Shown: positions 54,736 to 57,988 of the stretch, piece by piece
Numbering within the stretch: the first letter of the stretch is position 1
How the letters are laid out: each line of letters opens with the position of its first letter
Origin: Leadbettera azotonutricia ZAS-9
GTDB taxonomy: Bacteria > Spirochaetota > Spirochaetia > Treponematales > Breznakiellaceae
Direction of reading: 5' to 3'
NCBI RefSeq assembly: GCF_000214355.1
Contig: NC_015577.1
Coordinates: forward strand, 1,535,121 to 1,599,120
DNA length: 64,000 nt
Translations under genes and position numbers: made by a program
The notes under the pieces: generated by a model
What the model was told of the DNA's origin: nothing
The model's database searches: none
What the model saw: the letters and a program-made list of their open reading frames with translations, nothing else

Positions 54736-54749
54736 GGCTTATTATATAA
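54736..54749 (+). repeat. left direct repeat of the IS insertion site
   Basis: GGCTTATTATATAA directly before the IS left end; an identical copy follows the right end at 56153-56166. Fourteen bases (15 counting a shared T) is long for an IS3-family target duplication, which is usually 3-5 bases. Confidence 0.8.
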
Positions 54750-54824
54750 TGTCCTGCCCACGTTGAACTTGCCGAAAAGAAGCTAAGCATATAAGGTAGT
54801 AACAACAAGCCCGAGGAGAGGAAT

Positions 54825-55136
54825 ATGGGCAGAAGAAAGCGGTACAGTCCTGAGCAGAAGGTGAACATCCTGCGGGAGGTTCTGGAAGAGGGCAAGACGA
54901 TGAGCGAGGCGGCGGCCAAGTACGAGATCCACCCGAGCATGATCCTGGCCTGGAGGAAACAGCTCTTCGAGGGGGCGCTCAATCTCTTTGAGATCAAGCG
55001 CACAGACATAACCGAGAAGGCGCAGGGGAAGAAGTCCAAGGCGTTGGAAGCCAAGATAGCGGAGAAGGACAACGTCATAGCGGAGCTGGCCCAGGAAGTC
55101 CTGGAGCTAAAAAAAAAGAGAGTTGGCCAGAGTTAG
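54825..55136 (+). CDS. IS3-family transposase OrfA
   Basis: A 103-residue protein: an N-terminal helix-turn-helix (RRKRYSPEQKVNILREVLEE, YEIHPSMILAWRKQ) for binding the IS ends and a C-terminal leucine-zipper helix (AKIAEKDNVIAELAQEVLEL). GGAGAGGA precedes the ATG. It ends in a poly-A frameshift site. Confidence 0.93.
   Translation: MGRRKRYSPEQKVNILREVLEEGKTMSEAAAKYEIHPSMILAWRKQLFEGALNLFEIKRTDITEKAQGKKSKALEAKIAEKDNVIAELAQEVLELKKKRVGQS
55109..55118 (+). promoter_or_regulatory. programmed -1 frameshift site between OrfA and OrfB
   Basis: Nine A followed by G (55109-55118) give A_AAA_AAA and A_AAA_AAG in the OrfA frame. After a -1 shift the frame stays open through 55148 into OrfB, so a fused OrfAB transposase of about 415 residues can be made, as known for IS3. 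Confidence 0.75.
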
Positions 55137-55147
55137 GGACAAGCAAG

Positions 55148-56101
55148 ATGAGCCTCGAGAAACGGCAGTTGATAGAGCGGGAGGTGCGGCGCCTTTGCCT
55201 AAAGACCGGCATAGCCATGCTGACCCTGGCAGGCTTCGCCGGGGTGCCGGAACGCACCTGGAGGGAATGGCAGGCACGGCGCAACCAGGAGACGAGGCAT
55301 AACGGGCATATACCCCGGGAGCATTGGCTGACCCCTGCCGAAACAGAGGCCATCGTTGCGTACTGCCAGAGCCGGATGAAGCTTGGATACCGGGTGTTGT
55401 GCTGGCAGATGGTAGACGAGGATGTGGCGGCGGCATCCCCCTCCAGCGTCTACAACGTGCTGAAACGCAGCGGCTTGACGAAGAAGTGGGCAGAACTGGC
55501 CGAGGAGAAGAAAAAAGGGTTTGACCAGCCTCAAGGGGTACACGAACATTGGCATATTGATTTTTCATACATCAGGATTGACGGGGCCTTTTATTATTTC
55601 ATCAGCGTTCTTGACGGATACAGCCGGATGATCCTGGGCTGGGACTTATGCCGGAACATGGACGGGCTTAATGCGGAGATTCTCATCTCCCGGACGCATG
55701 AAAGACACCCGGAGGCCAGGCCGCGCATTATCAGCGACAACGGCGGCCAGTTTGTTTCGAAAGACTTTCGTGATTTGATAATGCTTCTTGAGCTGGAACA
55801 AACATTTACCGCCCCGGCGCATCCGCAGAGCAACGGCAAACTCGAACGCTTCCACCGGACATTCAAAACCGAGCATGTGAGGCAGGCTGCTTATTTCGGC
55901 TATGAAGATGCCAAAGCCAGGATGGGCCGCTGGATAAAATATTACAACGAAAAGCGGCTCCACGGCTCGATTTATTATTTAAGTCCCCTTGATGTTTTTG
56001 AGGGGAGGACTTATATTCGTCTTGCAGAGCGCAGACAAAAACTGCATTCTGCATATATTCAAAGACAGAGCTACTGGCAAAATCAAAATGCCGGACTCTG
56101 A
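55148..56101 (+). CDS. IS3-family transposase OrfB (DDE integrase)
   Basis: A 317-residue rve-type protein: HTH_21-like N-terminal part (CQSRMKLGYRVLCWQMV), then HIDFSYI (first Asp), ISDNGGQFVS (second Asp) and, exactly 35 residues later, GKLERFHRTFK (Glu). The spacing D(35)E is that of active IS3 enzymes. Ends 51 bases before the IS right end. Confidence 0.94.
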   Translation: MSLEKRQLIEREVRRLCLKTGIAMLTLAGFAGVPERTWREWQARRNQETRHNGHIPREHWLTPAETEAIVAYCQSRMKLGYRVLCWQMVDEDVAAASPSSVYNVLKRSGLTKKWAELAEEKKKGFDQPQGVHEHWHIDFSYIRIDGAFYYFISVLDGYSRMILGWDLCRNMDGLNAEILISRTHERHPEARPRIISDNGGQFVSKDFRDLIMLLELEQTFTAPAHPQSNGKLERFHRTFKTEHVRQAAYFGYEDAKARMGRWIKYYNEKRLHGSIYYLSPLDVFEGRTYIRLAERRQKLHSAYIQRQSYWQNQNAGL

Positions 56102-56152
56102 ACTAGCTTATATGCTCCTTCAAAAAACGGCAAGTTCGGCTTGGGCAATACA

Positions 56153-56240: not shown

Positions 56241-56362
56241 AATCAACAACCTCGCCGCAGAGCGGACGAGGTATGTTGTTCTCATAAGGTATTGCATTCG
56301 GGATTTAATACTTTTTTAACCGCCGCAAGTGGCAGGGTATTAAATCCCTCAGCACGAATAAA
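56241..56362. repeat. 122-bp structured repeat, copy A
   Basis: Nearly identical to 56720-56842. It contains two hairpins. First: AACAACCTCG...CGAGGTATGTTGTT around CCGC-AGA-GCGG. Second: GGGATTTAATAC pairs perfectly with GTATTAAATCCC around a GC-rich inner stem. It begins three bases after the stop of the disrupted small gene and ends five bases before the stop of the orphan gene on the other strand. Confidence 0.85.
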
Positions 56363-56367
56363 TATCT

Positions 56368-56640
56368 TTAGACAGTCCTAAAGACTCTTTCAATGTCATC
56401 AAGTACAGGTTCAGGCCGAATATCTTTAAATATGTCTTGCGCTTCCTTCTCGGATATTTCGTCGAAATCCGGACCTCCGCCGTAGACCATATTACCCTCC
56501 ATTTGAGAATAAGTCTGCGGCGCACAGTTCCATTTTTTTTCTTCTTCAAGAAAAAGTACCATGACATTGCTTTTGGGGCGGGCTGCGACAAGCATTCCGC
56601 CACCCGCTTTAAGCCAGAAGAATTTTACTTCTCTTTCCAT
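56368..56640 (-). CDS. orphan hypothetical protein between the two 122-bp repeats
   Basis: A 90-residue protein whose ATG (56640) has AGGAAG five bases upstream. It starts MEREVKFFWLKAGGGMLVAARP, includes a Cys at residue 39, a Gly-rich turn (MVYGGGPDFDE) and an acidic helical C-terminus (DDIERVFRTV). No family is recognised. It is bracketed by the two repeats and lies downstream of the radical SAM gene in the same orientation. The ribosome site and codon pattern support a real gene. Confidence 0.6.
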   Translation of the reverse strand: MEREVKFFWLKAGGGMLVAARPKSNVMVLFLEEEKKWNCAPQTYSQMEGNMVYGGGPDFDEISEKEAQDIFKDIRPEPVLDDIERVFRTV

Positions 56641-56719
56641 AAAAACTTCCTATTATAGTATTCAAATATGGACTATTCTTTTTTGGTATGTCAATATCAT
56701 TAAAAAGATACTGCCAACA

Positions 56720-56842
56720 AATCAACAACCTCACCGCAGAGCGGACGAGGTATGTTGTTCTCATAAGGTATTGCATTCGGGATTTAATACTTTTTTAACC
56801 GCCGCAAGCGGCGGGGTATTAAACCCCTCAGCACGAATAAAT
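56720..56842. repeat. 122-bp structured repeat, copy B
   Basis: Second copy, 479 bases from the first. Some differences change pairing: the inner stem here is a perfect CCGCCGC/GCGGCGG, while one G-C pair of the first hairpin is lost (CCTCA). It ends six bases before the radical SAM stop codon on the minus strand, the same geometry as copy A next to the orphan gene. Confidence 0.85.
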
Positions 56843-56848
56843 TCCCTT

Positions 56849-57988
56849 TTAGTCGTGCTGAGGGAAATGATTTTGCACGGTTTCCAGAAGGGCTTCCAGG
56901 CATTTGTCCAGGAACATTTTATAGCCGCACACTACGCCATTTTCGCCGTAGTACATGGTGTTGCGCATGCGCTTGCAGCCGCCGTGACAGGCTTGCAGGT
57001 ATTTGCAATTGATGCAGACAGAAGGGGTGCCCCGCTCTTCCAGCAAAAAGCTTCTATTCCTTTCGGTTTCAAATAGTTGGCTCAAAGTGCTTTCCGTAAG
57101 GTTTCCCAGGTTCCAGCTGTCGAGCGCATAGAAGTCGCAGGGGTATACGCTGCCATCGGCCTCTACCGCATACTGGGTATGGCATCTGCCATTTATCCCG
57201 CAGAAGGAGGGGATGGCCTTAAGGAACCAGTTGGCTGTATCGTCAAAGAATTTTATGCTCACATAATGGCCGGTTTGCAGTTCCTGACGCCAGAGGGTAA
57301 AGAGCTGCATATAAAATTTGGCGAAACGGGCAGGCTTAAGCGTATTCCCGCGCTGGTTTGCAGGAATCGCCGAGCCCGCTGTTCCCAAATTCTCAAGGCA
57401 GGGAATGAACTGGATAAAGTCGATTTTTTCCTGCAGGATGAAACGCCAAACCTTGTCGGCATGATCGGCAAGCTCATTGGTCAGTACGCAGAGCATGTTG
57501 TATTCCACTCGGTAATCTTCCAGCAGTTTCTTTGCCCTTAGCAGCCTTTCCCAGGTACCGTGCCCCTCCGTGTCAACCCGGTTCCGGTCATGGAAGCGCA
57601 GGCTGCCGTCTATGGAAAGCCCCACCAATACCTGGTGCTGCTTAAAAAATAGCGCCCAGTTCTCATCAAGAAGTATGCCGTTGGTCTGAAAAGCATACTG
57701 TATCGCCGCATTGCGGTTTTCACAGTATGCATCCGCCAATCCCATGAAGTCCTGAAACCACTCAAGGCCCGCAAGGGCCGGTTCGCCGCCCTGAAAGGCT
57801 ATGGTCAGCGCATCCTTATCTTCTACATCTTTGAACAGGTTTTCCAGCAGTTTTGCTGCAGTTTTTTCAGTCATGATCCCGTAGGATCTGACATGCCGCA
57901 TGGAGCTTATATCCGCATAGAAACAGTACTTGCACCGCAAATTGCACAGTGAGGAAGCAGGTTTGATAAGCAGGGAAAGCTGTTTCAT
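56849..57988 (-). CDS. radical SAM/SPASM enzyme, anaerobic sulfatase-maturase-like
   Basis: A 379-residue protein. Radical SAM cluster motif in SSLCNLRCKYCFYAD (CxxxCxxC), AFQGGEPALAG, and a SPASM domain with Cys in SFCGINGRCHTQ, YPCDFY, CINCKYLQACHGGCKRMRN and CGYKMF, the pattern of anaerobic sulfatase-maturating enzymes that make formylglycine. No sulfatase lies in the window, so a peptide-modifying role is also possible. It follows the M19 dipeptidase by 12 bases. Its last codons form one arm of a 12-bp inverted repeat with the adjacent structured repeat. Confidence 0.88.
   Translation of the reverse strand: MKQLSLLIKPASSLCNLRCKYCFYADISSMRHVRSYGIMTEKTAAKLLENLFKDVEDKDALTIAFQGGEPALAGLEWFQDFMGLADAYCENRNAAIQYAFQTNGILLDENWALFFKQHQVLVGLSIDGSLRFHDRNRVDTEGHGTWERLLRAKKLLEDYRVEYNMLCVLTNELADHADKVWRFILQEKIDFIQFIPCLENLGTAGSAIPANQRGNTLKPARFAKFYMQLFTLWRQELQTGHYVSIKFFDDTANWFLKAIPSFCGINGRCHTQYAVEADGSVYPCDFYALDSWNLGNLTESTLSQLFETERNRSFLLEERGTPSVCINCKYLQACHGGCKRMRNTMYYGENGVVCGYKMFLDKCLEALLETVQNHFPQHD

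Follow-up and report, generated by a model that had tools for sequence, protein, structure and literature searches.

A spirochaete family of short structured repeats, very probably non-autonomous IS200/IS605-type elements, with natural covariation of guide and target

The window analysed here, a stretch of 64,000 nucleotides from the genome of Leadbettera azotonutricia ZAS-9, carries two direct copies of a 123-nt repeat at positions 56241-56363 and 56720-56842, which are 97% identical and lie 479 nt apart. A small orphan ORF is situated between the copies, the ORF of a radical SAM protein follows the second copy, and an insertion sequence lies on the other side of the first (Table 1). The orphan ORF matched no Pfam or NCBIfam family, and in a search of 194 genomes its sole match apart from itself was weak (34% identity, E 2.7e-4), 2/194 genomes in all; nothing links it to the repeat, and it is not a carried cassette. 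The rve-type insertion sequence has a further copy, 99.6% identical, within 436-451 kb of the genome. It was rejected as a partner of the repeat: its border at about 56152 lies 89 nt away from the element, and nothing connecting the two was found. The sequence likeness of the two copies ends at the borders of the element and the two sites have nothing beyond the repeat in common; a duplicated segment of 479 bp was therefore also rejected.

Regarding structure, RNA folding of copy 1 gave a z of -5.5 on either strand, with 0/200 shuffles equally stable, and copy 2 gave z values of -3.8 and -4.2, again with 0/200 shuffles equally stable in each case. On the minus strand, each copy forms two hairpins. 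The two near-identical structured repeats of the original prediction, with their two hairpins per copy, are therefore real. Their position close to the stop codons of minus-strand genes also holds for both copies in the window, although the distances had been given as 5-6 nt, whereas the 122-nt match ends 5 nt from the stop of the 90-residue ORF and 7 nt from that of the radical SAM ORF. At 56848-56864 (plus strand TTTAGTCGTGCTGAGGG), the final codons of the radical SAM gene adjoin copy 2 and match the inverted left end of the element; they are perhaps what remains of a second, opposite insertion, which would now make up the 3' end of that gene.

Table 1. Features at the repeat locus, in window coordinates.
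Feature	Position	Strand	Remark
rve-type insertion sequence, two ORFs	54736..56152	+	separate neighbour
Copy 1, element proper (very probable PATE), 116 nt	56242..56357	-	
RE hairpin of copy 1	56244..56278	-	RE terminates in TTGAT (56242-56246)
LE long hairpin of copy 1	56300..56348	-	guide base x (A) at 56341
CL (TTTAT), left cleavage/target site flanking copy 1	56358..56362	-	variable base y at 56360
Orphan ORF of 90 aa, located between copies 1 and 2	56368..56640	-	neighbour, outside the element
Copy 2, element proper (very probable PATE), 116 nt, TCGTGCTGAGGGG...GGTTGTTGAT	56721..56836	-	borders by analogy with the congener empty site
RE hairpin of copy 2, one bulged T	56723..56757	-	RE terminates in TTGAT (56721-56725)
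Long left-end (LE) hairpin of copy 2, enclosing an inner hairpin	56779..56827	-	guide base x (A) at 56820
CL (TTTAT), left cleavage/target site flanking copy 2	56837..56841	-	variable base y at 56839
Radical SAM/SPASM protein, similar to anaerobic sulfatase maturase	56849..57988	-	neighbour; below NCBIfam cut-offs

When read on the minus strand, the repeat is composed of the target TTTAT, followed by TCGTGCTGA and a long left hairpin tipped by a second hairpin; a linker then leads to a right hairpin, which has a single bulged T, and to a terminal TTGAT. The element starts with TCGTG directly after the TTTAT target; its ends, TCGTG.. and ..TTGAT, form no terminal inverted repeats, and palindromes are present near both termini. 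The covariation analysis proposed earlier as a check came out in favour of the stems: in alignment A2, comprising 21 sequences, 92.5% of the cells were standard pairs, compared with 35-52% when the partners were slid, and 13 of the 32 pairs changed on both sides, a value reached by 0/500 shuffles. The tip of the left hairpin differs in length between subfamilies (e.g., L014, L022, L042), and in L014, L015, L017, L022, L024, and L042 it bears an extra hairpin of varying, mostly self-complementary sequence.

The repeat is not limited to the two copies in the window, the case that would have spoken against the original prediction. A BLAST search (E <= 1e-4) of the ZAS-9 genome, one contig of 3,855,671 bp, yielded 27 matches in 26 places on both strands, with two of the rows representing parts of one copy, and a covariance model yielded 28 matches in the same genome (E <= 0.01), 37 in genome G059, and 21 in genome G036. 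Nine of the ZAS-9 copies are identical across 114 nt, from TCG to TTGAT. Among relatives, BLAST identified the repeat in 26 of 58 genomes, ZAS-9 counted in, while the covariance model, for which up to 12 candidates were scored in each genome, identified it at E <= 1e-8 in 79/291 genomes and 26/82 genera of the order. The right-end pattern occurred in at least 120 stretches of one-genome-per-species contigs, and all 80 of those listed were titled Treponema or another spirochaete; the family occurs in oral, rumen, and gut treponemes. No match to the element was obtained in 50,697 phage and 72,556 plasmid records, nor to the right-end pattern in viral contigs, and carriage by phages or plasmids was therefore rejected. 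Across 103 elements, the length ranged from 107 to 154 nt, which is too short for a transposase gene.

The borders of the element were read from one locus at which filled and empty sites could be compared. Genome G086 carries the element there, whereas in its congeners G071, G039, and G089 the element is absent and both flanks are contiguous; in a fourth congener, G036, the element is absent and other DNA is in place. With a slash marking each junction, the empty site of G071 reads TTTATTTAT/TTTTTTTCTC and the filled site of G086 reads TTTATTTAT/TCGTG...TTGAT/TTTTTTTCTC. It follows from these junctions that the element was inserted exactly 3' of a TTTAT already present, that the target was not duplicated, and that TTGAT is the element's own. 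Tandem junctions of the form TTGAT/TCG were found at L009, L021, L051, L190, and L224, and at L205 an element is inserted at the TTTAT that terminates a decayed tnpA element.

When considering the enzyme, the Y1 transposase model PF01797 had 0 matches in the ZAS-9 genome and none in the repeat-rich genomes G036, G039, G047, G025, and G015; it had matches in 10 of the 20 genomes tested. At E <= 1e-10, a Y1 TnpA family was present in 41/291 genomes of the order, not all of which have element-like ends. The tnpA relatives that have them share the layout of the element, with TTTAT/T...GGTTTAATACCC-hairpin on the left and xATACC-hairpin-GG..TTyAT/T on the right. An exact donor was not found among the tnpA elements; the closest ones share the layout, GGTTTAATACCC, and the ATACC motifs but do not have the TCGTG start. 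TnpB-type models gave weak, mostly sub-threshold matches in 4/20 genomes, where BLAST for the element ends returned nothing.

Each repeat is very probably a 116-nt non-autonomous element of the IS200/IS605 type (PATE, palindrome-associated transposable element), which a Y1 TnpA would move in trans. The borders, the target rule, the covarying hairpins, the guide pairing, and the tnpA relatives were observed directly, whereas we infer the enzyme, the timing of movement, and the circular intermediate. In the inferred scheme, a Y1 (HUH) TnpA, supplied in trans, would bind both hairpins on the lagging-strand template and cut after CL and CR, whereupon the single strand would circularise and the resulting circle would reinsert behind a pentanucleotide pairing with the guide. 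The element is not an autonomous member of IS200/IS605 because it contains no tnpA, and it is filed as a PATE on the features that define PATEs. Since the ZAS-9 genome has no Y1 TnpA gene today, its copies were probably stranded after the loss of TnpA or mobilised by a transient carrier, and the spread of identical copies through genomes now devoid of a Y1 transposase calls for an explanation. The previous picture of a structured repeat at stop codons gives way to that of a mobile element whose single-strand mechanism is open to testing. Genome G012 (L094-L101) contains a separate family of elements about 120 nt long, whose two cleavage sites are both TTTAT (TTTAT/TCCTTTGGGG..GGGGATTTTTAT/T); 22 PF01797 matches were found in that genome.

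According to PMC5934647 and PMC6006769, the cleavage sites of IS608 are recognised via base pairing with a guide located 5' of each hairpin. For this reason, one guide position at the left hairpin, x in xATACC, was compared with y, the central base of the TTyAT flank. The two bases were complementary in 96 of 103 distinct two-ended elements (A-T 85, C-G 7, G-C 4), guide base A going with TTTAT, C with TTGAT, and G with TTCAT, while seven elements break the pairing (A-G 4, C-T 1, A-A 1, G-T 1). Expressed as distinct combinations of genus, x, and y, 28/34 were complementary. Permutations matched neither the 96/103 (0/20000) nor the 28/34 (0/20000), with relatedness within genera lying outside the permutation model. 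The 103-element count leaves out 60 regex hits in which no right end could be recognised; these include non-element hits, more A-T elements, and further agreeing cases (the second unit of L051, L115, L202, L224, L225), as well as exceptions (L111, L153, L207, L212, L230, and L049, in which a left end is fused to a right hairpin). In the tnpA elements, the RE guide and the RE site paired as G-C in 10 cases, A-T in 3, and C-G in 2, versus a single G-T; this count comprises the 16 correctly picked of 36 tnpA rows, L113 and L115 being mis-picked among 18 candidates, and the other 18 rows, many of them other IS200 types, having no RE site picked.

The fold-back arm that holds the guide in the spirochaete element is absent in the autonomous relatives and could gate guide exposure. 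On balance, we lean slightly towards a reading in which natural target choice drifts via single guide-base changes, independent lineages having moved from TTTAT to TTGAT or TTCAT, in combination with such an arm-borne guide. If true, this would represent a spirochaete-wide natural counterpart of engineered IS608 retargeting, with which the natural covariation of guide and target fits. Because the left-flank targets are read from host DNA, the collection constitutes a natural experiment on guide-directed targeting in IS200/IS605.

Orientation along the chromosome was analysed relative to the replication origin, which was taken from sampled GC skew in ZAS-9 and G059 and assumed at base 1 in G036. 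The skew of ZAS-9 and G059, sampled at 20 places per genome, was noisy, but positive values prevailed over the first contig half and negative values over the second. By contig half, the elements were oriented 12+/3- versus 4+/9- in ZAS-9 (p = 0.020) and 11+/6- versus 6+/14- in G059 (p = 0.050), with a combined p of 0.0012, while G036 exhibited no orientation bias (1+/3- versus 7+/10-); the three genomes together gave p = 0.004. The bias in the complete genomes ZAS-9 and G059 has the direction expected of a top strand located on the lagging-strand template, and is moderate evidence for a preference that G036 does not show.

Gene context was evaluated by a simple longest-ORF rule for 55 elements with 700-nt flanks, of which 4 lay within ORFs and 1 had no right neighbour. 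The 50 classified elements had convergent neighbours in 18 cases, co-directional neighbours in 26, and divergent neighbours in 6, and the excess of convergent over divergent placements (p = 0.023) indicates a bias to gene 3' ends. This placement is a bias and no rule: 32/50 elements are not situated between convergent genes, and the suggestion of a 3' UTR RNA that always follows stop codons was not upheld. A structured RNA or a bidirectional terminator under selection at the 3' ends of genes would account for the strong folding, for the convergent placements, and for the window copies lying directly behind stop codons, but we consider it improbable as the primary identity of the repeat in view of those 32 elements and the 4/55 within ORFs, of Rfam searches of the region that returned chance-level matches only and no family at the gathering score, of the empty site in congeners, and of a covariation that reaches flanking DNA outside the hairpins. 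A secondary role as RNA or terminator is possible for copies after their insertion.

More improbable still are repeats of the REP/REPIN type, spread by a domesticated TnpA(REP) (RAYT). According to PMC6006769, these are likewise short, palindromic, non-autonomous intergenic repeats, presumably moved by a Y1 enzyme of the same HUH superfamily, with a guide 5' of the hairpin. In contrast, no Y1 enzyme was found in the ZAS-9 genome, the spirochaete element has two distinct hairpins in one direct orientation, TTNAT sites, and IS200-like tnpA relatives bearing both ends, the GTAG guide given in that source was not seen in it, and a RAYT gene flanked by its hairpins was not found in the genomes searched.

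An integron-like gene cassette with the repeat as its recombination site, another option of the original prediction, is very unlikely. The orphan and one repeat do form a 479-bp unit and three close pairs in ZAS-9 share their orientation, but most copies are scattered on both strands with no array in the ZAS-9 genome, the orphan has its near-isolated distribution and was not found with the repeat elsewhere, the integron-integrase model scored below its cut-off in ZAS-9 and G059, and the empty-site junction fits IS200/IS605 and not site-specific cassette insertion. The same model passed in 3/3 genomes of genus g37 (G086:C1:1873290-1874237, L434; G071; G036). The earlier label of a MITE-like element is apt in spirit, the repeat being short, multi-copy, gene-less, and very probably mobile, of the IS200/IS605-derived type that lacks terminal inverted repeats. 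A MITE in the classical sense, bounded by terminal inverted repeats, is just as unlikely as the cassette, and so is a local duplication: the ends of the element are not inverted repeats, the filled/empty pair revealed no target duplication, and the window copies lose similarity at the element borders.

When compared to described systems, the spirochaete element, as a very probable IS200/IS605-type PATE, resembles the PATEs of Haloquadratum walsbyi (PMC3119063), which likewise lack terminal inverted repeats, carry palindromes close to their termini, leave the target unduplicated, are too short for a transposase, and have IS605-type-related ends and core-deleted copies. It differs from them in belonging to another domain of life and in its unrelated sequence, and the spirochaete family has an order-wide spread and a measurable covariation of guide and target. 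With IS608 and ISDra2, whose targets are TTAC and TTGAT, respectively (PMC5934647 and PMC6006769), it has in common the subterminal hairpins, the guide 5' of the hairpin, a second structure in LE, insertion 3' of a short target, and possibly a lagging-strand preference, the spirochaete element showing an orientation bias in 2/3 genomes. Unlike IS608 and ISDra2, it contains neither tnpA nor tnpB, its TTTAT, TTGAT, and TTCAT targets vary among copies together with the guide, and its LE guide sits within a long fold-back arm.

The kind of element is known (PATE), and the family is apparently new. A literature search whose coverage mostly excluded subscription journals found, among the titles listed, neither the element family, its spread in spirochaetes, nor natural guide/target covariation; no publication joined IS200, IS605, Treponema, and MITE, and none on Treponema azotonutricia combined repeat and genome.

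A decayed right-end half-element (L020:1501-1561; ZAS-9 2406707-2406767; E 5.6e-12) is located in frame in murE (L020:718-2430; TIGR01085), where it encodes approximately 26 residues of a loop; 7/7 aligned relatives have a shorter loop at this place. Rickettsia palindromic elements inside genes reportedly encode an in-frame protein segment, as with this MurE half-element. Unlike those elements, the spirochaete case concerns one decayed half-element in one gene, and the family is otherwise mainly intergenic.
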